From an uncultured delta proteobacterium (GTDB lineage: Bacteria; Desulfobacterota; Desulfovibrionia; Desulfovibrionales; Desulfovibrionaceae), in contig LT599018.1 in NCBI GenBank assembly GCA_900079685.1, positions 1,386,970-1,450,969 of the forward strand: 64,000 nucleotides of DNA. Reading direction: 5' to 3'. Below are positions 36,248 through 51,924 of the stretch, piece after piece. Numbering within the stretch: the first letter of the stretch is position 1; every line of letters begins with the position of its first letter. A program made the translations under genes and the position numbers. Below the pieces are notes generated by a model. The model was not told the origin of the DNA. It made no database searches and saw only the letters and a program-made list of their open reading frames with translations.

Positions 36248-36828
36248 GGCATATCTTCCCGTTGGGCTTGCAGCAGACGGACCGTCACCGCGTACCCGGC
36301 CCGCTGGTCGGTAAAACGGATGACGGACGCCCAGGGAGTTCCCGGCGTTTTTCCGGAAAAGGAAACGTCCCAGCCATCGCCCGCAGCGCCGTTATTTTGC
36401 GGCATTATACTGAAACAGTCAAACCATATCCGCCGTATGCACGAGGCGATATGTTCGGTTGCATACGGTATTTTTTTCAGCACCGGATGCAGGTACGCCA
36501 CCCGGAACCAATCCGGCCCGATTTCCATGTCGAAAAGCTGCATGCCCAGCCCGCCGAGCGCCGTGACGCGGATGCTCGACTGTGCCGCATCCAGGCGCAT
36601 CAGGCCGTCAAAACTCTGCGCGACGCCGCGCCGGGGTATTTCGAGACGGACCTTGTGGCGCAAGATCCAGACCCCGGCAACCTGCTCCGCTCCGGCCACG
36701 GTGTTCCCGCACACAACCTTCCCGGACGGAGGCGCACCGTCAAGAGGCCGGGATGCGCACCCGCCGCAAACCGCCAGCAGCAGAAGAAGGCAGAAAACCC
36801 GTATGGCGATGCCGCACCGCTTATCCAT
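36244..36828 (-). CDS. DUF3261-type outer-membrane lipoprotein
   Basis: A 194-residue lipoprotein: signal with lipobox VCGGC (Cys about 24), then a beta-rich body (FDGLMRLDAAQSSIRVTALGGLGMQLFDM) typical of the DUF3261 lipoprotein found in aryl-polyene clusters. It overlaps the MMPL gene by 8 bp and the ApeI-like gene by 4 bp. It probably helps place the pigment in the outer membrane. Confidence 0.8.
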   Translation of the reverse strand: MDKRCGIAIRVFCLLLLLAVCGGCASRPLDGAPPSGKVVCGNTVAGAEQVAGVWILRHKVRLEIPRRGVAQSFDGLMRLDAAQSSIRVTALGGLGMQLFDMEIGPDWFRVAYLHPVLKKIPYATEHIASCIRRIWFDCFSIMPQNNGAAGDGWDVSFSGKTPGTPWASVIRFTDQRAGYAVTVRLLQAQREDMP

Positions 36829-39283
36829 GGGTTTCGCCTCCCGTCCCGCCGGTCTTCACGCCGTCTTGCGTTGGGGATACCAGCCGCGGCACCAGCCAGA
36901 GGGCCGCCGACAAGGATGCCGCGAGCCCGAGCGTGACCGTCATCCCCAGCGAAAACAGCGCCGGGTGCTTTGCCAGCAAAAGCGAGCCGAACCCGGACAA
37001 GGTCGTGAGCCCGGACAGCAGAACGCCCTTGCGGCTGTCGCTATCCAGCACGCCTTCCTGCCGCGCCAGCATGAAAACCCCGTAATCCACGCTGAGCGCC
37101 ATTATCAGCGGCAAGGCCATGGCGTGAAAAATATTGAGGCTGAGGCCGGACAGCCGAAACACGCCCAAAACCGCCGCAAGGCCCAGGGCCACGGGAAGGA
37201 GCGCCACGCCCATGCGGGACGGCGAGCGCAGGACGAAAGCCGCCATGCCCAGGATGGCCGCGAGCGCCAACGCGCCGAAACGGCGCATGTCGTCCCGCGT
37301 GGCGGCGGCCAATGCATCCCGGAACGTCTGGCCGGAAACATAGGTCGCCCCGCCCCGCTCGAGCGTATCCAGAAATGGCCGTGAAGGCGCATCCGAAGGA
37401 ATGAGGCTGTAGACGTAGCTGGTTCCGCCCGCTTTTTCGACCGTCTGCCCGGACGGTTGGCCGGACGGTTGGCCGGACGTTTGGCGGATGAACAGGAGCG
37501 GCAGGGGCAGACCGAGGCGGGTCAGGGTTTCCGGCGTGATCGTCTCGGGTTCCGAAGCTATCCAGGCGGCGAACGGCGCAAAGGCCCCGTCGCTGAAACC
37601 GGCCTCCGGCGCGAGGCGCGCCAGGGAAGCCAGCACATCCGGCCCGCGCTCGCGCCAGAACGCGGTCCAGACCGCATGGCGCTCCGCCTGGGTCTTCGCG
37701 GACGGCAAAAAAGGCGCAAGCGAGGTTATGGCTCCGGCGCCGAACCCGCTCCCGGCGGGCAGGAGCGAAAGGTCCCGCCAAAGCCGGTCGTTTTTTTCCA
37801 GGGCCTCGTCCAGAGTGTCGCCGCTCACCGCGAACATGGCGTTGTTGCGCAGCCCTCCCCATATCTCCCCGGTGCGGGCTTCGTCCGCCGCAATATCCCT
37901 GGGAGTGTAGGACAGCGCCCGCACGTCGCCGTTCACTGGCACGGTATACAGCAAGGCGGGCAGAATCAAGGCCATGGCGATCCAGGCCCCTGCCAGGAGC
38001 CGGGACGGGCGGCACACCGCCGCACCGCTTTCCGTAACGGCGGGAGGCGTTGCCGCGCCGGGCCGCAGGCACTGGGGCAGCACGACAAGCGCCAGGAGCA
38101 CCGCCGCCAGCACGCCGCTGATGGCGAACACGGTCATTTGCAGGATGCAGGGAATGCTGGAGGCAAAAAACGCCGCGAACCCGGCCAGCGTGGTCGCCGC
38201 GCCGAGCAGCAGGGGGCGGCTGACCCGCGCAAGGCTCTCCGCCACGTCCCCGCCGGTCCGGACGGCGTAATACACGTGGATGGCGTAATCCGCCGTGATG
38301 CCGAGCACCACGCTGCCGAACCCCAGCACGATACCGGAAAGGCTGCCGTAAAAAATACCGGTACAGGCGGCGGCAACGGCCAGCGAGGCGGTGGGGAGCA
38401 CGAAAATGGCCATGCCCTGCCAGGAACGCACGAACAGCAGAAAAAAAACGACCAGAAAAACCAGGGAGAGCGGCAGAACCCTGGCCATATCCTTCTGGAT
38501 GACGGCCGCGTTGGCCTCCGTGTGCCGGTGCCCGCCCGCGACAAGAACCTCGGTTCCTTCCGGCAGCAGGCGAATCGCTTTCCGGACCTTGTCCATGACC
38601 GCCGCGGAAGACCGTGAATCTCCCACGGACGCGGCGGGTTCGGCCAGGACCATGGCGTATTTGCCGTCCGCGCTCGCCAGGTAACCGGAATCCAGCTTCA
38701 GGGAGCCGGATTCCATGCGCGGTCCAGCGCCCGCGCCTGCAAAGCCGCCCGGCGCAAGGCCGCGCAAGGCGTTGCCGCAGATGCCCAAGGGGTCCATCGC
38801 CAGCATGTCCCGCAGGGCCAGCCCCTTGGGGGTCATGAGCAGGCGCGCGTCCCTGGCGAGGGCGCCGCGCATGGCGTCTTCCGTAACGAGGCCCGGCAGC
38901 GCGGCCAACTGCTCGCGGTTCATGAGGCCCGGCGACGCCGCGCAGAGACGGGTCAACGTTTCCGGGGAAAAACCGGTTGCCGCCCCGGAAAAAACCTGGG
39001 GAATGTCCGGGCCGCGCAAGGCATCGGCAAGAACGGCGGCGGCGCGCGCCGGGTCCGGCCCGCCGAGGGTGATGGTCAGCCCCTGCAAAAGCGGCGCTTC
39101 CCGCAGGATGGCGAACTGTTCCGCCAAAACGGCTGGCCGCGCGGGCATGAGGGTGGTAACGTCCTCGCGCACCACGAACCGCGTGGCCGCGAATCCCGAT
39201 GCCAGCACCAGCGCGAGGCTTGCGGCCACAAGAACGGCGGGCCGTTTCGCGAAAACCCGGTACAGGCTGGCGAAAAGCGTCAT
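36821..39283 (-). CDS. MMPL/RND-type lipid exporter
   Basis: An 820-residue RND protein with two membrane-periplasm halves. After TM1 comes a periplasmic domain (about 40-240), then TM2-6, a second periplasmic domain (about 470-640) and TM8-12. The Asp in the proton-relay TM (SVDYGVFMLARQEG in the second half, TADYAIHVYYAVR in the first) is visible. In aryl-polyene operons the MMPL exporter moves the lipid-linked pigment out of the inner membrane. It overlaps the LolA-like gene by 4 bp. Confidence 0.93.
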   Translation of the reverse strand: MTLFASLYRVFAKRPAVLVAASLALVLASGFAATRFVVREDVTTLMPARPAVLAEQFAILREAPLLQGLTITLGGPDPARAAAVLADALRGPDIPQVFSGAATGFSPETLTRLCAASPGLMNREQLAALPGLVTEDAMRGALARDARLLMTPKGLALRDMLAMDPLGICGNALRGLAPGGFAGAGAGPRMESGSLKLDSGYLASADGKYAMVLAEPAASVGDSRSSAAVMDKVRKAIRLLPEGTEVLVAGGHRHTEANAAVIQKDMARVLPLSLVFLVVFFLLFVRSWQGMAIFVLPTASLAVAAACTGIFYGSLSGIVLGFGSVVLGITADYAIHVYYAVRTGGDVAESLARVSRPLLLGAATTLAGFAAFFASSIPCILQMTVFAISGVLAAVLLALVVLPQCLRPGAATPPAVTESGAAVCRPSRLLAGAWIAMALILPALLYTVPVNGDVRALSYTPRDIAADEARTGEIWGGLRNNAMFAVSGDTLDEALEKNDRLWRDLSLLPAGSGFGAGAITSLAPFLPSAKTQAERHAVWTAFWRERGPDVLASLARLAPEAGFSDGAFAPFAAWIASEPETITPETLTRLGLPLPLLFIRQTSGQPSGQPSGQTVEKAGGTSYVYSLIPSDAPSRPFLDTLERGGATYVSGQTFRDALAAATRDDMRRFGALALAAILGMAAFVLRSPSRMGVALLPVALGLAAVLGVFRLSGLSLNIFHAMALPLIMALSVDYGVFMLARQEGVLDSDSRKGVLLSGLTTLSGFGSLLLAKHPALFSLGMTVTLGLAASLSAALWLVPRLVSPTQDGVKTGGTGGETHG

Positions 39284-39915
39284 CGCGGGTCAAATTCCCC
39301 GTCGTCCACGGGGCCGTTGACGACCGTGTCCGAGAACGCGATGGTCGTCCTGCCGCCACGCGCTTCCTGTATCGCCACAAGCGAGGCGGGGCCCTCCGCG
39401 CTGAACGTGATGGTAATGCTTGCAATGACGGCCCGCACGTCCTCGCGCAGCGGGATCATCCGCAACACCAGCGGCGTTTCCCCGAGTGTTTCGATGGTAT
39501 ACTCGCGGTTGATGCTCGCAAGGTCAAAGGTGATCCAGGCCATGAGCTGCCGGGCGATAACGCCCGCAACCGGATCGCTTTTGGCCGTAAAGGCCGTGCG
39601 GACCGCGCCGTCGTCCTCCCAGCGCACCCCTGTATCCCCTTTGAGCGCAAACCCTTCCCGCATGGGGCTGGTAAACTCCCAACGCAGGCAATCCGGACGC
39701 TTGAACAAAAACCGCCCCTGGGAGCGCATGGGCTGGGCAAACATGGGGATGGCCGTTTCCTGAACGAACGCGCTCCGCAAGGTCATGACGGAGGCGGTCC
39801 GCTCCTTCAGCCCGGCAAGGGCGTCAGCGGCGAAGGACGGGGCCGGAAAAGCGCACAGGACAGCCAGCAGCGCGAGGGCGGGAAGGCCGCATGGGAAAAA
39901 GGGAACCCGTCTCAT
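39280..39915 (-). CDS. LolA-like periplasmic carrier
   Basis: A 211-residue exported protein (signal cleaved after SFA, about residue 29) with the LolA-type pattern RFLFKRPDCLRWEFTSP. It probably carries the hydrophobic product across the periplasm to the outer membrane. It overlaps the ApeP-like gene by 4 bp. Confidence 0.88.
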   Translation of the reverse strand: MRRVPFFPCGLPALALLAVLCAFPAPSFAADALAGLKERTASVMTLRSAFVQETAIPMFAQPMRSQGRFLFKRPDCLRWEFTSPMREGFALKGDTGVRWEDDGAVRTAFTAKSDPVAGVIARQLMAWITFDLASINREYTIETLGETPLVLRMIPLREDVRAVIASITITFSAEGPASLVAIQEARGGRTTIAFSDTVVNGPVDDGEFDPR

Positions 39916-40358
39916 TCCGGCACGAAAACCTTGAGTCTGCCCTCGGCCAGCAGGCTCCCGTCCCGGAAGACCTCGGCGGAAAGGACCGAAACCTCCGCCA
40001 GTTCCGCCGTCAGCGCGACGGTTATGCGGAGAGTGTCCCCGGCCCGGGCTTCCTCATGGATGTGGAAATCCTGCACTCCGACCAGGAACCCCGGCTTGGG
40101 GGGAAGGTTGTGGATATACAGATCATATCCCTGCATGGCCCCGGCCGTCTGGGCGGCAAGCTCCACGTAGCCCGCCCCGTCCAGCGTCTCTCCCCGCAGC
40201 AGGCTGTGGCCGGGGACGAGCGTCACCTCGGCGGTCGCCCCGGTTTTGGAGGAGGCCAGCAACGTATCGATGCAGCACATGGGGCCCGCGTGCGGCAAAA
40301 GCACGCGGGCATCCAGCGGAAAAGACGCGGGCGGAAAAGAGGCGGCAGGAACCGTCAT
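39912..40358 (-). CDS. Hotdog dehydratase (ApeP-like)
   Basis: A 148-residue hotdog protein with the segment LLPHAGPMCCID at the start and GYVELAAQTAGAMQGYDLY in the middle, the pattern of the 3-hydroxydecanoyl-ACP-dehydratase-like ApeP. It pairs with the ApeI-like protein as the second dehydratase or isomerase. Confidence 0.8.
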   Translation of the reverse strand: MTVPAASFPPASFPLDARVLLPHAGPMCCIDTLLASSKTGATAEVTLVPGHSLLRGETLDGAGYVELAAQTAGAMQGYDLYIHNLPPKPGFLVGVQDFHIHEEARAGDTLRITVALTAELAEVSVLSAEVFRDGSLLAEGRLKVFVPE

Positions 40359-40371
40359 GCGTCGGCCCGGC

Positions 40372-40782
40372 CTACTTTTTTATCTGGGCAAGTTCCGCGT
40401 TGATGGCGCGGGACAACCGGTTGATCCAGTTGGGGTAGTTGCGGTGGATCTGGCCGGTCCCGTCGTCGTCCATATTGACGCTGCTGCGGTAGTGAATCGT
40501 GTACTCCTTCGCGGTATACGGGATTTCCACGGTCACGCCGTGCTCGCGCTGCGACAGGGTGGCGACGACAAGGCCCGGTTTTTCGTCCTTCATCGCCCAC
40601 CCGGCGTTGCTGCCGCCGCGGATGATGGCGTCGTGGACCTGATTGGCCGTCAGCTTGCCGTAGGTGCTCAGGTTGGTGTTATAAATGTCCTCAATGGCCG
40701 CGGTTCTTTTCTTGCATCCCACGCTCACGGCGCACAGGCAAACCATCAACACGACAAGCGGAAATAAAACGGACCGTTTCAT
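40372..40782 (-). CDS. Lipoprotein of unknown function
   Basis: A 136-residue lipoprotein (lipobox VSVGC, Cys 23). The body contains an AIIRGGSNAGWAM segment and a C-terminal NWINRLSRAINAELAQIKK. ATG 40782 has AAAAGGAG upstream, so the longer frame to 41013 is rejected. Family not recognised. Its place between PlsC-like and ApeP-like genes implies an envelope role in the pathway. Confidence 0.75.
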   Translation of the reverse strand: MKRSVLFPLVVLMVCLCAVSVGCKKRTAAIEDIYNTNLSTYGKLTANQVHDAIIRGGSNAGWAMKDEKPGLVVATLSQREHGVTVEIPYTAKEYTIHYRSSVNMDDDGTGQIHRNYPNWINRLSRAINAELAQIKK

Positions 40783-41588
40783 ATATACTCCTTTTGACAG
40801 ATGGCCGGGATGGCCACGGTTGTCTCGCCGCGCACATCGTCGAGCGCCTGCTGCAGCTGCTTTTTGGCCGTGCGCCGCAGAACGAGCGGCGCTTCGTCGC
40901 CGTGCACGGCAAAATCCCGCGGGTACAGGGGGTCCAGCACCCGGATACGGATTGACGCCGGCCGCAGCAAAAAGCCGCCCCGGCGTAAGAACGCGCCCGT
41001 GCCGTCGATGCACACCGGCACGATGGGCACGTCCGCTTCCATCGCCAGACGGAACGCGCCCGCGTGAAAGCGCCCCAGCGAGCCGCCGGGGCTGCGGGTC
41101 CCCTCCGGGAACACCGCGATGGACGCGCCTTTCTTCAGCATGGCTTTTGCCTGAAGAAGCAACTCGCCCGGCGCCTCGCTTTCCGTGTTCAGATACTCGG
41201 CCCAGCGCATGTACGGGCCGTAGAACGGCATGCGGAACGGCCAGGCCCGCACGGCGAAGACGACGTCCGGTTCCGGCAGGAAGCCGAAGCAGTAGGTATC
41301 GAAAAATGACTGGTGGTTGGGGACGAAAATGCAGGGGGTGTCAACCTTCCGGTCGCAGTTTTCAAGCCGCAGCGGCACGAAGGAGGCCAGCAGTTTGGAC
41401 CAGGCCCGGCCGTACAGCCAGACCAGGACCCGCACGGCCTGCCCGCGCGTTTTTTGCCGCGCGTACCGCACCCAGCAATACACGGGAAGAGAGACGAAAA
41501 GCATCCCCACGGCGGTAATGACGAACAGGCCGCTGTAGAACCCGGCGTTGAGCCAGATCAGTTTTATGCCGTACCATACTCGGTTCAT
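40779..41588 (-). CDS. PlsC-family 1-acyl-glycerol-phosphate acyltransferase
   Basis: A 269-residue membrane acyltransferase with NHQSFFD (HX4D catalytic motif, about residue 91) and FPEGTRSPGG (about 159). Two N-terminal hydrophobic helices anchor it. It overlaps the lipoprotein and the ACP by 4 bp each. Probably makes the lipid anchor or primes its acylation (ApeD-like). Confidence 0.9.
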   Translation of the reverse strand: MNRVWYGIKLIWLNAGFYSGLFVITAVGMLFVSLPVYCWVRYARQKTRGQAVRVLVWLYGRAWSKLLASFVPLRLENCDRKVDTPCIFVPNHQSFFDTYCFGFLPEPDVVFAVRAWPFRMPFYGPYMRWAEYLNTESEAPGELLLQAKAMLKKGASIAVFPEGTRSPGGSLGRFHAGAFRLAMEADVPIVPVCIDGTGAFLRRGGFLLRPASIRIRVLDPLYPRDFAVHGDEAPLVLRRTAKKQLQQALDDVRGETTVAIPAICQKEYI

Positions 41589-41848
41589 TGCGCTTTTTCG
41601 AACTCGCGTTTTTTGGCTATGATGTAGTTGTGCATGTCTTCAATGGTACGGATGCTCATGATGGCCGGGTCACGCCCGATCTTGATGCTGAAGGTTTTCT
41701 CCAGAACGATCACCATGTCGACGGCGTCAAGGCTGTCCAGGTCGAGGTCTTCCCGGAACCTGGCCTCCGGTTTCATCTGCTCGGGATCAAGCTCGAATTC
41801 GGCCGCCAGGGCTTCATCCGCCATCGCGATAATTTGTTCGTCAGTCAT
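41585..41848 (-). CDS. Acyl carrier protein 2
   Basis: An 87-residue ACP with DLDLDSLDAVDMV; Ser 39 takes the phosphopantetheine arm. ATG 41848 (8-bp overlap with the KS gene) is the likely start. Two ACPs per cluster match known aryl-polyene systems (ApeE and ApeF). Confidence 0.92.
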   Translation of the reverse strand: MTDEQIIAMADEALAAEFELDPEQMKPEARFREDLDLDSLDAVDMVIVLEKTFSIKIGRDPAIMSIRTIEDMHNYIIAKKREFEKAQ

Positions 41849-43073
41849 CAAGGCCTCGAAAAACCAGGCTGCAGTTGATGCCGCCCAGGGCAAAATTGTT
41901 TTTGACAATCACGGAAACGGGCCGGGATTCGTTTTGCCGCAGCAAATGTATGCCCGCGCATTCCGGGTCCGGTTCGTCCAGATTGCGTGTGGGGAGAAGC
42001 GTCGCGTTCTGGAGCATCCGCACGCAGGCGATGCTTTCCAGCGCCCCGCTGGCCGCCATGGTATGCCCCATATGGCCTTTGAGGCTCGAAACCGGCGTTT
42101 TGTCCCCCAAAAGCATGGCAATGGCCTTGCTTTCGGCGATATCTCCCTGGATCGTCCCGGTGGCGTGCGCGTTCACGTAGGAAACCGAATCCGCTGCAAC
42201 CCCAGCGGAATCTAACGCGTCGCGCATGCACCGGTATAAGGGATAAGGGTCGGGGTTGGCAATACTTGAAGGGTCGGACGTCGAGGAAAACCCGGCCAGT
42301 TCCGCCAGTATCGCCGCGCCCCTGGCTTTCGCGGACTCGAACGACTCCAGGAGGAGGACGCCCGCGCCCTCCGAGCAGACGATGCCGTCCCGCTTCGCGT
42401 CAAAGGGGCGGGGCGTGTTCCCGGGCGTGTCATTGTATCCGGAAGACGCGGCCATCATGAGGTCGAAGGTGCCGGTCGTCAGGGGGTGGTACTCGTCGGC
42501 CCCGCCGCAGAGCACCGCGTCCTGGCGGCCCAGCGCGATCGCTTCGTAGGCAAGCCCGATGGCCTGGCAGGACGTGGAGCAGGCGGAGGTGGGCGCGACG
42601 ACCCTGCCCGTGACGCCGAGCGCCTGGGCCACGTTGGCCGCCACCGAATGCCCCATGACGCGGAAAAACAGCATGGACTTCATCTGGTCCAGGGCGCCCT
42701 GCGCAATATATGTCCGGAAAAATTCCTCGATAGTGTGCACGCTCCCCATGGTGGAGCCCATAACCAGCCCGGTCCGGCCCCCCGTCAGGGCGTCCCCGGG
42801 GAAGCCCGCCTCATTCAGAGCTTCCTGGGCCGCCAGGAGCGCGTATACCGACATGGGGGACATGGAACGCCGGTGCTTGCGCGGCACCTCGTTCATATCC
42901 ACGTTGCGCACCAGCCCGGCGACGCGCGGGCCGAGTTCGGGAAACTTGTCCAGTTCGTCATGGCGGCGGATGCCGCTTTGCCCGGCGAACAGCGCGGCCC
43001 ACAAGGCATCGCTGCCCTTGCCGTAGGGGGAAACCGCGCCCGTTCCCGTGATGGCCACCCGTTTCAGTTGCAT
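41841..43073 (-). CDS. Beta-ketoacyl-ACP synthase
   Basis: A 410-residue FabF-like KS with Cys in TSACSTSCQA (about residue 166), His in NAHATGT and His in KGHMGHTMAASG. ATG 43073 with GAGGGGG upstream; the longer frame to 43334 is rejected. It overlaps the FAD oxidoreductase by 10 bp. It is one of three active-looking KSs in the operon. Confidence 0.9.
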   Translation of the reverse strand: MQLKRVAITGTGAVSPYGKGSDALWAALFAGQSGIRRHDELDKFPELGPRVAGLVRNVDMNEVPRKHRRSMSPMSVYALLAAQEALNEAGFPGDALTGGRTGLVMGSTMGSVHTIEEFFRTYIAQGALDQMKSMLFFRVMGHSVAANVAQALGVTGRVVAPTSACSTSCQAIGLAYEAIALGRQDAVLCGGADEYHPLTTGTFDLMMAASSGYNDTPGNTPRPFDAKRDGIVCSEGAGVLLLESFESAKARGAAILAELAGFSSTSDPSSIANPDPYPLYRCMRDALDSAGVAADSVSYVNAHATGTIQGDIAESKAIAMLLGDKTPVSSLKGHMGHTMAASGALESIACVRMLQNATLLPTRNLDEPDPECAGIHLLRQNESRPVSVIVKNNFALGGINCSLVFRGLDD

Positions 43074-44554
43074 GCTACCCCCTCTTGCAGGGCTGAATGG
43101 CCGAGCAGGAATCCGCAGGCCAGGAAAGCGGAAATCATGGCCCCCATCAGGCCCGGAGCGATAACCGACTGCCCGGCCAGCCACAGGTTGGGGACCCGCG
43201 TCATGGGCAGCGGGTTGAACTGCGCCACCGTGTGTTTGCAGCCGTAAAGGCCGCCGCGCCGCGCGTCCAGATAGTCCCGCATGGTCAGGGGCGTCGCCGC
43301 GTCCACGAACCGGACGGCTTCCAGTTCCGGACACAGCCGGACCAGGGACTCGCGCACCCGCGCAACCGTCGCCTTCTTGAACGCTTTATATGCTTCCGGG
43401 CGGTTGCCGCGGGCACTGTCCGCCCATGCCGCAACCTGGTCAAAACTGCCCGGCGCCACCACCACGATGCCGCTTTTGGCGGAATGCGCGGGCTGCGGCG
43501 AGGAAGCGACGTAAAACGGGCCGTCCTCCGGGGCCATCCGGCCTTCGAAGGCGTTGCCCAGGTTCGGGCCGTGGCAGAGAAACATGTTCCGGTTCCGCAA
43601 ACAGTCCAGCTTTCCCTCCGCGATGCCGAAGAACATGTATGCGGAGGCCGTGTCTTCCAGGCCTCGCAGCCGTTCCAGGTAGGCCGGGCGGAAAATCTTC
43701 CCGGCCATCGCCGCAAGGCTTGAGGGGTGCGCCGTGCAGATGCAGGCATCCGCCATGATATGCTCCCCGTCCTCCAGTTCGAGGCCGGTGACGCGCCTTT
43801 CCTCGCCGCAGACGATGCGCCGCACGGCGCGGCCGGTGACGACGGTAACGCCCTCCGCCGCCAGCCTGCGCTCGAACGCCTCGACCAGGGCCGCTCCGCC
43901 CCCGGCGAAGTTGTGCACGGAGTCGAAATACGAAGCCGAAACATAGGCATGCTGGGTAAAGGGAACCTCGTCCGGAGACACGCCGTACAGCAGCGCGTGC
44001 ATGGACAGGACCGTCCGCAGGTGGGGGTTTTGGGTCAGCGTGTCCAGATAGGCGCTCAGCGAAAGGGCCGCGCGGGGGTCCTGCATGGCCTGCATGCCGC
44101 TTTGGGCGTCCAGAAAAAAGTTCAGCAGGGAGGAGTTGGTGAACGCCTCGCGGGCGGCCCGCATGTAGGCGGTAATCGCCGCTTCCTCGCCGGGGAAGGC
44201 ATCGCGCAGCGCCTCCGTCATGCGTTCAAAACCTATGGGCAGGTGCACGCGTTTATCAATATCCGCAAAATAGACGGCGTCAAAGCACTCTTCCGCGAAC
44301 GGGGCGAGTTCCAGCGCTTCAACCCCGAGATACCGCAGGTACCGACTGACGATACCCTTTTCGGCAAGGCCGCCGGTATAGTGCAGGCCGGTGTCGAAAT
44401 AAACGCCCTGCCGGGTGAACCCGCGCACGGTCAGGCCGAGACGCCGCGATTTTTCAACGAGTGTCACCGCATACCCGTTCCGGGCGAGGATCAGGGCGGA
44501 TGTAAGGCCCGCGAGGCCCCCGCCGATGACGGCGACGGTTTTGCTTTCAGACAT
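43064..44554 (-). CDS. Phytoene-desaturase-like FAD oxidoreductase
   Basis: A 496-residue flavoprotein of the CrtI/CrtNP type. The dinucleotide fold is VAVIGGGLAGLTSALIL near the start and the C-terminal FAD motif is NLWLAGQSVIAPGLMGAMIS. ATG 44554 follows the KS stop; TTG 44563 is a weaker alternative. A desaturase-like flavoenzyme is not part of the well-studied E. coli or Xenorhabdus aryl-polyene gene set. It might set or modify conjugation or reduce the chain. Confidence 0.88.
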   Translation of the reverse strand: MSESKTVAVIGGGLAGLTSALILARNGYAVTLVEKSRRLGLTVRGFTRQGVYFDTGLHYTGGLAEKGIVSRYLRYLGVEALELAPFAEECFDAVYFADIDKRVHLPIGFERMTEALRDAFPGEEAAITAYMRAAREAFTNSSLLNFFLDAQSGMQAMQDPRAALSLSAYLDTLTQNPHLRTVLSMHALLYGVSPDEVPFTQHAYVSASYFDSVHNFAGGGAALVEAFERRLAAEGVTVVTGRAVRRIVCGEERRVTGLELEDGEHIMADACICTAHPSSLAAMAGKIFRPAYLERLRGLEDTASAYMFFGIAEGKLDCLRNRNMFLCHGPNLGNAFEGRMAPEDGPFYVASSPQPAHSAKSGIVVVAPGSFDQVAAWADSARGNRPEAYKAFKKATVARVRESLVRLCPELEAVRFVDAATPLTMRDYLDARRGGLYGCKHTVAQFNPLPMTRVPNLWLAGQSVIAPGLMGAMISAFLACGFLLGHSALQEGVACN

Positions 44555-44559
44555 ATCGC

Positions 44560-45789
44560 TCAACTTTTTCCGTGAAATGCCAGGGCAAGGCAGGAGTTGG
44601 TGCCCCCGAACCCGGCGGCGTTACAAAGGGCCGTTCGCGGCGGCGTTTCCAGCGTTTCCCTGATAACGGCGAGACGCGCCGTGATGTCGTCGCCTTCGGT
44701 GAAATTGCGGTTGGCTGCGGTGAACCCATGGCCCGCCATCAGGCAGGTATAGACCACCTGCGCCGCGCCGGACATCCACAACTCGTGCCCGGTCATGGAC
44801 TTGGTGGACGATACCGGAACCCCGTTATCGCCGAAAAGATCGAGCAGGTTGCGCGCTTCCATGGCGTCCCCCACGGGCGTGGACGTCGCGTGCGCGCACA
44901 CGTAGGATATGTCGGGCGCGGCCATACCCGCGTCACGCAGCGCGCTCCGCATGGCCCGGCCAAGGCCGTCCGCGCTGGGCACGGAAATGTTCTCGCCGTC
45001 GGAGGAAAACCCGTACCCCGCGACCTCGCCCAGAATGGCCGCGCCCCGGGCTTTCGCCAGGTCGTACCGCTCAAGCAGAACGGCCGCCGCGCCGCCGCCC
45101 GGCACAAGGCCGTCACGGGATGCGTCAAAGGGCCTGCTCGCCTCATGGGCCGCGTGTATGCGGGTGGAAAAAGCGCCCAACCCGTCAAAACTGCACATGG
45201 ACTGCCAATTGATTTCCTGCGCGCCGCCGCAGATGACGCGGTCCTGCCGGCCCAGCCGGATAAGGTCCGCGGCCTGGCCCACGGCATGGCCGCCGCTGGC
45301 GCAGGCCCCGCTGAGGGTCCAGCACGCGCCCCTGGTTTGCAGGATGACGTTCAGGTTCATGCTGACACAGGACGTCATGGAGCGGAAAACCTGCCCGCTG
45401 CCGAGGCTTGTGGTCATGCCGGACGCGGCAAGACCCTCCACCTGCTCAATGGCGGCTATGCAGCTTGAATCACAGCCGAAAATAATGCCGGATGCTTCAT
45501 TACGCAGATCTTCCGGCGCGAGATTCGCCTGGGCCAGCGCCTGGAAGGCGGCTTCCGCCGCCCATTCCGCGAAATCGGGCATGGTTTTGCGCTGCTTGCG
45601 CGAGAGGGGAAACGCGGGAGTAAAATTGTCGATTCGGCCCGTCAGCGGGGATAAAAAACCGCGCGCCTCGCGTTCGGGATCGACGACGATGCCGGAACGC
45701 CCCCGGTACAGAGCGGTAGCGACGGCGCCCGTGGTATTCCCGAGCGATGAAACAATGCCGAGTCCCGTTATGGCGACGCGATGTTTCAT
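44560..45789 (-). CDS. Beta-ketoacyl-ACP synthase (FabB-like)
   Basis: A 409-residue KS with Cys in LSGACASGGHA (about residue 165), His in CAHATSTPVGD and His in KSMTGHELWMSGA. It is near the start of the operon, 34 bp after the lipoprotein gene. The KSMTGHELW pattern is that of the FabB-like, often ApeR-type, enzyme. Confidence 0.9.
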   Translation of the reverse strand: MKHRVAITGLGIVSSLGNTTGAVATALYRGRSGIVVDPEREARGFLSPLTGRIDNFTPAFPLSRKQRKTMPDFAEWAAEAAFQALAQANLAPEDLRNEASGIIFGCDSSCIAAIEQVEGLAASGMTTSLGSGQVFRSMTSCVSMNLNVILQTRGACWTLSGACASGGHAVGQAADLIRLGRQDRVICGGAQEINWQSMCSFDGLGAFSTRIHAAHEASRPFDASRDGLVPGGGAAAVLLERYDLAKARGAAILGEVAGYGFSSDGENISVPSADGLGRAMRSALRDAGMAAPDISYVCAHATSTPVGDAMEARNLLDLFGDNGVPVSSTKSMTGHELWMSGAAQVVYTCLMAGHGFTAANRNFTEGDDITARLAVIRETLETPPRTALCNAAGFGGTNSCLALAFHGKS

Positions 45790-45823
45790 GAATGCGACCT
45801 GTTACACAAGACCCGTGCCCGCC

Positions 45824-46075
45824 TCATAGCGACCCGGACTGTTCCGTTTTGATTTCCGTATCCTGCTTTTCGGAACTTTGCTTTTCAGACGAGCCTTTGG
45901 CCCGTTCCCGCTCGTAACTATCGTGGTAGCTCTTGTCCATGGCGTCGATTTTGTTCTCCACCTTGGCCTGTGCTTTTCCGGCGGCTTTTCCCATCCAGGC
46001 GCAACCGGAAGCGCATACCGGAATAGCCGCCAGAAGCAGCAGCGCCGCACCTTTACCCATCCATTGCCGCATCAT
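45824..46075 (-). CDS. Small lipoprotein, first gene of the APE-type operon
   Basis: An 83-residue lipoprotein with lipobox CASGC (Cys about 25) and a very hydrophilic tail rich in Glu, Lys, Ser and Gln. Two adjacent ATGs (46075 and 46072) follow an AAGGAG box; 46072 has the better spacing. It is divergent from fabG across 189 bp. Confidence 0.7.
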   Translation of the reverse strand: MMRQWMGKGAALLLLAAIPVCASGCAWMGKAAGKAQAKVENKIDAMDKSYHDSYERERAKGSSEKQSSEKQDTEIKTEQSGSL

Positions 46076-46264
46076 CCGTCTCCTTTACCGGCGCGGGGCG
46101 CCGGGGCCGCCCGGCCGCGTCCGCAACAACGCCGCGCCCGGAATGCTTACCGTAAAAAACCCGGCAATCAGAAGGCCCCGCTTTGCAAAACAGACGCGAT
46201 GCGGTATTCCTCATGCCGGCGTTAGGAAAATAGTATAGCATTATAATCAACAAGAGAAAAGAGT

Positions 46265-46996
46265 ATGGATGACAGGCGAACCGCCCTGGTGACGGGAGCG
46301 AGCAAGGGCATCGGCAGGGCTGTGGCGGAACGGCTCGCGAAAGACGGCTATGCGATCTGGCTCAATTACCGGAGCGATACCGCAGGCGCCCTGGACGCGA
46401 AAAAAAGCATCGAATCCGCCGGAGGGTCCTGCAGGTTGCTGCAATTTGATGTGGCCGACGGCGACGCGTGCAAAAACGCGCTCACCCCTCTTTTGCAAAC
46501 GCGGGTTCCCGACGTGCTGGTCAACAACGCGGGTTTCGCGCGGGACGGGATCATGGCCATGATGCAGGAAAAAGACTGGAAGGACGTTTTGAACGTGCAC
46601 CTGGACGGCTTTTTCAACGTGACGGGCTGCCTTCTGCCCCATATGCTGCGCAGGCGGAGCGGGCGCATCATCACCATGGCCTCGACTTCGGGGCAGACCG
46701 GCGTCGGCGGGCAGGTAAGTTATTCCACGGCGAAATCCGGGCTAATCGGGGCTACCCGCTCGCTGGCGGTGGAGGTCGCGAAGCGCAACATTCTGGTCAA
46801 CGCCGTGGCGCCGGGGTTTATCGAAACCGATATGGTGCGGGAGGTGCCCAAGGATAAGGTCCTTCCGGTTATCCCCATGCAGCGGTTCGGCGAGCCGGAG
46901 GAAGTTGCGGGGGTGGTGGCGTTTTTGTGCTCGGATGACGCCTCGTACATCACGGGGCAGGTTATTGCCGTGAATGGCGGGCTTTTTACCGGCTAG
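46265..46996 (+). CDS. 3-oxoacyl-ACP reductase (ApeQ/FabG-like)
   Basis: A 243-residue short-chain dehydrogenase with TGASKGIG (NADP site), the catalytic Ser in TMASTSGQ and YSTAK (Tyr-Lys). It reduces 3-oxoacyl-ACP and is the only ketoreductase in the APE block. It is divergent from the rest of the operon, so both sides share a control region (46076-46264). Confidence 0.92.
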
Positions 46997-47357
46997 CTGG
47001 AAGAATAAAGAAGAAGAAGAACCTCCCCACCTCCCCTCTCCCCCTCCACCTCATAAGCATGCAACAACACCTGTTGAATGCAACAATTTTTGTTGTGTCA
47101 TTTTATTTCATTGTTTAAATTTAAATAAATATATCAAAATAATATAAATAAACAGTCCATTAATCCCTTGTTGAATTCAACACAATTCTGTATACACCTC
47201 AATTCAGCATTATAATTTTCTCAGGGAATCCACCGGTTACAAAAACCACATTCTAAACAATGCAACTTTTCAACAACACAATGTTGAATTTTGCGGTTTT
47301 TTTGGACAACAAACCCCACTGGTGTATGAACAGATCAGGAGCACAAGGGAGCGCGCA
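46997..47357. promoter_or_regulatory. AT-rich control region of the YheO-like / PFOR unit with TGTTGAA palindromes
   Basis: A locally AT-rich 361-base region. Operator-like sites: TGTTGAATGCAACA (47072-47085), CAACA-N5-TGTTG (47081-47095), TGTTGAATTCAACA (47169-47182, perfect palindrome) and TTCAACA-N6-TGTTGAA (47269-47288). One of the dispersed AAGAAGAACCTCCC repeats is at 47010-47030. Confidence 0.55.
47168..47196 (+). promoter_or_regulatory. Promoter with an operator over its -35 box
   Basis: TTGTTG (47168-47173), 17-bp spacer and TATACA (47191-47196). The perfect palindrome at 47169-47182 covers the -35 element, which implies repression or autoregulation. Confidence 0.5.
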
Positions 47358-48011
47358 ATGACGGATAAAAAACAACTCTTCCCCCTACTGGGCCGGATCG
47401 CGGACGCGATTCACCACACTTTCGGGCAGAACTGCGAGGTGGCCGTACACGATATGGCCAACCCCAACCGCTCGCTGGTCCACATCGCGGGAAACGTCAC
47501 CGGGCGCAGCACCGGCTCCCCGATCACGAACTTCGGCTTAAAGCTCCTCTCCCTCCAGGAAAAAGGCGAGGACGTGCACGGCTACCAGACCAAGTTCAAG
47601 GATAAATCCGTGGTCTCGAGCACGGTTTGCATCAAGGACGACGAGAGCAAGATCATCGGGTTTTTGTGCATCAACTTCGACATCACGAAATTATTGCAGG
47701 CCCAGAACGCCATTGTCGGCTACGGGTTGCAGCACAGCGACCTTTTCGCGACCGTCGGCGAATCGCTGGCGGACCTGACCGTCGCGACGGTTGAGAGCGC
47801 CATCAACGACGTGCTGGCGGAAATGAAGAAAGACCCCCGCCTGATGACGGGCAGGGAGCGGCTTGCGTTCATCCGCCGGCTGCACGACCACAAGTTTTTC
47901 AGCATGAAGGGAGCCGTTGTGGAAGTGGCCCAGGTTTTGGGCGTGTCGCGCTACACCATTTACAATTATTTGAAGAAAATCGGCGTCCGGGAAGCCGGGC
48001 AAAAGCAATAA
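47358..48011 (+). CDS. YheO-like (PAS_6/HTH) transcriptional regulator
   Basis: A 217-residue regulator of the YheO/DauR type. N-terminal PAS-like domain (FGQNCEVAVHDMANPNRSLVHIAGN minus its tail; ITNFGLKLL) and a C-terminal helix-turn-helix (AQVLGVSRYTIYNYLKKIGV). ATG 47358 has GGGAG upstream; the 47322 frame start is rejected. It lies 45 bp upstream of the PFOR gene and may sense a redox or carbon signal to control it. Confidence 0.85.
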   Translation: MTDKKQLFPLLGRIADAIHHTFGQNCEVAVHDMANPNRSLVHIAGNVTGRSTGSPITNFGLKLLSLQEKGEDVHGYQTKFKDKSVVSSTVCIKDDESKIIGFLCINFDITKLLQAQNAIVGYGLQHSDLFATVGESLADLTVATVESAINDVLAEMKKDPRLMTGRERLAFIRRLHDHKFFSMKGAVVEVAQVLGVSRYTIYNYLKKIGVREAGQKQ

Positions 48012-48035: not shown

Positions 48036-51602
<3,567 letters not shown>

Positions 51603-51924
51603 CGATCTGCTGCCGCATGCACAGCCGCCCCGGTTACGCCATGGCCGGGGCGGCTTTTTGTTTTGCCGGGGGCGGGGGGAAGAGAAGAACCTCCCGGTTG
51701 TTTGAGTGGGTTCGTTGGCGGCTTCGCCGCCGAAGTAACATATCCTTCGACTGTCGTTGGTCCGCCTCCGGCGGGGGGACGGGGGGCTACGGCTGCTGTT
51801 GGACGAAAGAATTTGACGCCGCGCGGATGCACTGGTCAGGAGAACTGGTGTTTGTCTTGCGCGGATTGCTCTCTTGGCGTGCGCGGCGTATATACCGGGC
51901 ATACTCTTGTAAGGACGGCGGTTT
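51603..51924. other. Intergenic region after PFOR
   Basis: This 322-base stretch holds the PFOR terminator and a copy of the dispersed GAAGAGAAGAACCTCCC repeat with CTCCCGGTTGTTTGAG (51691-51706). No ORF was supported. Confidence 0.45.
51623..51659 (+). terminator. PFOR terminator
   Basis: A 10-bp stem (51624-51633 with 51645-51654) is followed by five T, about 20 bp past the stop codon at 51602. Confidence 0.8.

Follow-up and report, generated by a model that had tools for sequence, protein, structure and literature searches.

A putative operator cluster of TGTTGAA dyads upstream of a PAS_6/HTH_22 regulator and pyruvate:ferredoxin oxidoreductase unit in an uncultured delta proteobacterium

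A stretch of 64,000 nucleotides (the window) was analysed, and TGTTGAA sites upstream of a PAS_6/HTH_22 regulator gene and the pyruvate:ferredoxin (flavodoxin) oxidoreductase (PFOR) gene that follows it were assigned as probable operators of this regulator, through which it would place its own regulator–PFOR unit under ligand-relieved control; the probability of this reading was put at about 0.6. At the level of sequence, an operator cluster for a self-regulated PAS_6/HTH_22–PFOR unit is a well-supported prediction. Its interest lies in a candidate operator for a little-studied regulator family, for which PFOR is an unusual target. The family is widespread; its operator and, for HeuR/Cj1387c, its signal are not reported in PMC4519771 and PMC5111405, an open question made testable by the predicted half-site and tandem-dyad layout common to the window and about 20 distant promoters.

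The sites are located in the 361-bp intergenic stretch (46997-47357) between a FabG-type gene and the regulator gene, in a control region with a GC content of 27–33 % versus about 60 % in the surroundings. Exact TGTTGAA/TTCAACA heptamers were found five times against 0.22 expected; five were never attained in 2000 dinucleotide shuffles of the stretch (maximum three), which preserve its AT-rich composition. The stretch carries TGTTGAATGCAACA at 47072-47085 (one mismatch to a perfect palindrome), the perfect 14-bp palindrome TGTTGAATTCAACA at 47169-47182 and the single heptamers TTCAACA (47269-47275) and TGTTGAA (47282-47288). Within the entire 4,009,354-bp genome, the TGTTGAATTCAACA-type palindrome occurs in two copies at up to one mismatch, both of them here, and exact TTCAACA-N6-TGTTGAA has its sole copy at 47269-47288, the runner-up having two mismatches. 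Multiple TGTTGAA sites in an AT-rich control region, as described in the initial annotation, were thus borne out by position, by shuffling and by genome-wide rarity. A global regulon of the palindrome was considered and rejected, as no further copy at up to one mismatch was found elsewhere in the 4.0-Mb genome.

The sites noted initially are all present, and they are better parsed as three groups of 19–20-bp dyads (O1 to O3, without assigned strand), the dyad partners having been overlooked. O1 (47060-47097) consists of two tandem 19-bp dyads, TGCAACA-N5-TGTTGAA (47060-47078) and TGCAACA-N5-TGTTGTG (47079-47097); the one-mismatch palindrome seen earlier at 47072 is the junction between them. 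O2 (47156-47195) is made up of two degenerate 20-bp dyads placed back to back (47156-47175 and 47176-47195; three mismatches each), with TGTTGAATTCAACA at their inner half and outer half-sites that match at just 4/7 positions. O3 (47269-47288) is a perfect 20-bp dyad, TTCAACA-N6-TGTTGAA, in which the TGTTGAA at 47282 is joined by its partner at 47269.

A palindrome lying over a −35 box with a good −10 box had also been proposed. The promoter in question (47168-47196, plus strand; TTGTTG at 47168-47173 and TATACA at 47191-47196) does have the 17-bp spacing claimed for it; its boxes match at 3/6 and 4/6 positions, as in a weak promoter, and a promoter scan listed no promoter at 47168-47196. A perfect TATAAT at 47211-47216 (plus strand), without a clear −35 box, may serve as an alternative −10 box.

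The regulator gene (47358-48011, plus strand) encodes a protein of 217 aa with an N-terminal PAS_6 domain (PF08348, residues 13–117; 8e-33, 113 bits versus a cut-off of 27) and a C-terminal HTH_22 domain (PF13309, residues 145–206; 3.1e-20), the recognition helix of which is GVSRYTIYNYLKKI. A structure model (mean pLDDT 83.7) combined a PAS-like alpha/beta N terminus with a helical C terminus. The protein is a member of the PAS_6/HTH_22 (YheO-like) transcription regulators, and the YheO-like regulator adjoining PFOR that had been recognised previously was confirmed by the two domains and by the full-length PFOR downstream. A sequence search of solved structures returned helix-turn-helix scraps alone, and a fold search returned generic PAS/LOV and VqmA matches that gave no ligand clue. 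Linkage to RidA or a deaminase, which is common in the family and not strictly defining, was not found, the next gene being PFOR. Two paralogous regulators (30–35 % identity) are encoded in the same genome, one (L003) with a RidA gene directly after it and the other (L002) with a RidA-like reading frame nearby; neither has a TGTTGAA palindrome in its vicinity.

The PFOR gene (48057-51602, plus strand; 1181 aa) starts 45 bp after the regulator gene, and its product gave a full-length match to TIGR02176 (residues 4–1175; 1869 bits versus a curated cut-off of 911). Because a strong terminator-like hairpin (51623-51655, plus strand; 14 pairs, ten of them GC, and a T-run) lies 3′ of PFOR, the regulator and PFOR genes likely form a two-gene unit. 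The FabG-type short-chain dehydrogenase gene upstream (46265-46996, plus strand) closes the preceding gene cluster and is not thought to be part of this unit.

Related regulators from Desulfofustis and related genomes are 34–38 % identical to that of the window, and their recognition helix, GVSKYTIYNYLKKI or close variants, is near-identical to GVSRYTIYNYLKKI. TTCAAC/TCAACA words were found in the relatives' own-promoter regions in 21 of 25 cases, and TTCAAC-type words reached about four to six times the shuffled expectation in a 40-locus set. In 11/25 relatives TCAA recurs on the same strand at a distance of exactly 19 bp, the period of O1, and in 13/25 at a distance of 18–20 bp (shuffled mean 0.58, maximum 4); a Desulfofustis promoter (L011) carries TTCAACAAATATTTGTTGACA, an N6 dyad like O3. 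The Desulfofustis-type loci (L009-L016, L081-L104) share with the window the near-identical helix and TTCAACA words at a 19–20-bp period, and differ from it in overall identity, in their position upstream of SDH_alpha/L-cysteine desulfidase-like genes, so that their presumed target is a deaminase yielding pyruvate, and in the presence of a second palindrome. A motif was trained on the relatives' promoters up to the −35 box, with the window left out. Its best match in the 64 kb fell in O1 (47078-47095; palindrome models of 16–20 bp), and the regulator promoter ranked first among 1061 scanning windows of the 64 kb. When composition-matched shuffles served as the reference, the best single match had modest significance only (P ∼0.03–0.06), and the four best sites summed gave P ∼0.001 (18-bp palindrome model). 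Recurrence of the half-site TGTTGAA before relatives with almost the same helix fits self-recognition rather than Rex, and the TGTTGAA/TTCAACA word is probably the DNA site of such regulators.

Other recognition helices tend to go with other promoter words, in few cases that are suggestive only. Selenomonas and Priestia relatives with other helices have TTATATAA-like promoter stretches, and TTCAAC is missing from the regulator promoters of plasmid relatives whose helices differ. The L074 regulator (genome G068), with the helix GISKYTLYSYKK, is preceded at the equivalent position by GTACAA words with a 20-bp period, as if site and helix had changed together.

The relatives' neighbours encode SDH_alpha (serine dehydratase/cysteine desulfidase type), a CuyA-like D-cysteate sulfo-lyase (a partial sequence; 408 bits, under the cut-off of 450), diaminopropionate ammonia-lyase and RidA. 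The plasmid relatives adjoin RidA with threonine ammonia-lyase or threonine synthase, and some others are found in operons that are xanthine-dehydrogenase-like by sequence resemblance. Deamination by enzymes of the SDH_alpha, CuyA and diaminopropionate-lyase types proceeds via an enamine and ends in pyruvate, which PFOR consumes. Since pyruvate-forming deamination recurs among the neighbours of the closest group of relatives, the signal could plausibly be a 2-oxo acid or an amino acid from which one is formed; the contexts hint at a single class of ligand (2-oxo acids or their precursors) and at an accessory PFOR under local control.

Regulator dimers are predicted to bind the 19–20-bp TTCAACA-N5/6-TGTTGAA dyads, two in tandem at O1, two at O2 and one at O3. 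As the centres of O1 and O2 lie about 97 bp apart and those of O2 and O3 about 103 bp apart, the occupied sites could be bridged through looping, and O2 would occupy the stretch immediately preceding the likely −10 boxes. In the simplest model, which is also the most likely, the regulator would repress the regulator–PFOR unit until its PAS pocket bound pyruvate, a different 2-oxo acid or an amino acid deaminated to pyruvate, and the accessory PFOR would thus be made when such substrate is abundant. DauR of Pseudomonas aeruginosa, likened here by description and acting in another organism on another operon, is reportedly a PAS_6/HTH_22 repressor that responds to the 2-oxo acid 2-ketoarginine, and is said to control a D-arginine catabolic operon. 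This response points in the same direction as a ligand-released repressor, as does the raised Cj1388 of a Campylobacter mutant.

In that mutant, which lacks the YheO-like Cj1387c, the RidA-family Cj1388 was raised (PMC4519771), consistent with repression; repression is not certain, because HeuR has positive effects too (PMC5111405). HeuR/Cj1387c of Campylobacter jejuni is, like the regulator of the window, a YheO-like protein with PAS_6 followed by a helix-turn-helix; it controls genes next door, and its family is often RidA-linked (PMC4519771, PMC5111405), whereas the neighbour in the window is PFOR rather than RidA or heme uptake. The 2016 paper on HeuR gives no exact binding site (PMC5111405). 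Dedicated control of central lactate/pyruvate oxidation in a sulfate reducer is likewise described for LurR and the lactate oxidation operon of Desulfovibrio vulgaris (PMC6456213); LurR is one of several two-component regulators and serves a large operon, whereas the window has a PAS_6/HTH_22 protein next to a PFOR that stands alone. A broader proposal is tentative, with the odds rather against it: that a PAS_6/HTH_22 clade reads tandem 19–20-bp TTCAACA-N5/6-TGTTGAA dyads, senses pyruvate or its enamine/amino-acid precursors, and controls lyases that form pyruvate in some sulfate reducers and, in this genome uniquely, a PFOR that consumes it. If true, the clade would be a family of regulators acting at the pyruvate node, with its operator defined.

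The same sites could be used by an activator, the ligand-bound regulator recruiting RNA polymerase to the TATAAT promoter from O2, at a position near −47. The perfect TATAAT (47211-47216) lacks a good −35 box, the start predicted from it falls about 47 bp beyond the centre of the O2 core (47175.5), and the relatives' repeats extend no further downstream than the −35 box, all of which would suit activation. However, the relatives' promoters have good TTGACA −35 boxes, which require no activator, both candidate promoters are followed downstream by O3, a position typical of a repressor site, and loss of Cj1387c raises Cj1388 (PMC4519771). Activation was considered unlikely, and ligand-relieved repression was retained as the preferred reading. 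Binding of the sites by another factor (of Rex or FNR/HcpR type, or an unlinked regulator), which would tie PFOR to the redox state, is improbable. PFOR is a redox enzyme and Rex half-sites are superficially similar, and a Rex-type repressor had been named beforehand in the initial annotation as the opposing case, but no Rex-like operator was found in the window: the Rex site TTGTGAA-N4-TTCACAA gave 0 matches at up to three mismatches, and a match at 47111 to a lax Rex pattern of Gram-positive type, with three mismatches, is at chance level. An FNR-like site was not found in the window either, and both Rex and FNR sites were rejected, none being present at useful stringency. Genome-wide, the sites are confined to the regulator–PFOR locus, unlike those of a global regulator.

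When whole promoters of the relatives were used for motif training, the GTGCATATGCAC palindrome was obtained, and the TTCAAC motif appeared only after the promoters had been cut at the −35 box. GTGCATATGCAC is the strongest motif of the whole promoters, lies downstream of the −35 region and is represented by at least one half in 19/25 relatives. It might accordingly be taken as their true operator, the TTCAAC repeats being separate and their likeness to the window partly that of AT-rich, promoter-like sequence. This was judged a poor prospect, for the palindrome is absent from the window, from the CuyA-type locus L072 and from L074, where TTCAAC words or a variant still accompany the regulator, and the 19-bp repeat periodicity far exceeds that of shuffles. 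Because GTGCATATGCAC goes with SDH_alpha as a neighbour and not with the regulator, TTCAACA was assigned to the regulator, and we infer that it, not GTGCATATGCAC, belongs there; GTGCATATGCAC could still be the real operator of the SDH_alpha-linked relatives. In L009-L016 and L081-L104 it is found some 35–130 bp before the regulator start, near the presumed transcription start of the regulator–SDH_alpha units.

Of 29 PFOR loci inspected in other genomes of the family, none has this regulator next to it, and no regulator orthologue at E 1e-50 or better was found in 148 family genomes. Matches at 1e-28 were obtained in four other genomes among 395 of the phylum, to which Desulfofustis belongs as well, given a 100 % match to L011 within it. 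The pair is therefore rare, and perhaps a lineage-specific or acquired arrangement; because it was seen in one genome alone, a cross-species footprint of its own promoter could not be made. Three PFORs, the window copy included, are encoded in the genome. That at C2:307024 looks more like the housekeeping enzyme, since it adjoins phosphate acetyltransferase and acetyl-CoA hydrolase/transferase. In view of the three PFORs and the absence of the pair from the 29 other loci, the earlier suggestion of a switch for pyruvate oxidation was overstated. The third PFOR (G000:C1:2910544, L134) is followed by TRAP-type transporter-like genes and an IclR-type regulator; directly upstream of it lies a reading frame that resembles an IS30-like transposase. 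The cluster that precedes the regulator in the window (36821-46996) encodes two ketosynthase-like proteins, an acyl carrier protein, acyltransferase-, LolA- and RND/MMPL-exporter-like proteins and FabG, and resembles an aryl-polyene or flexirubin-type lipid cluster.
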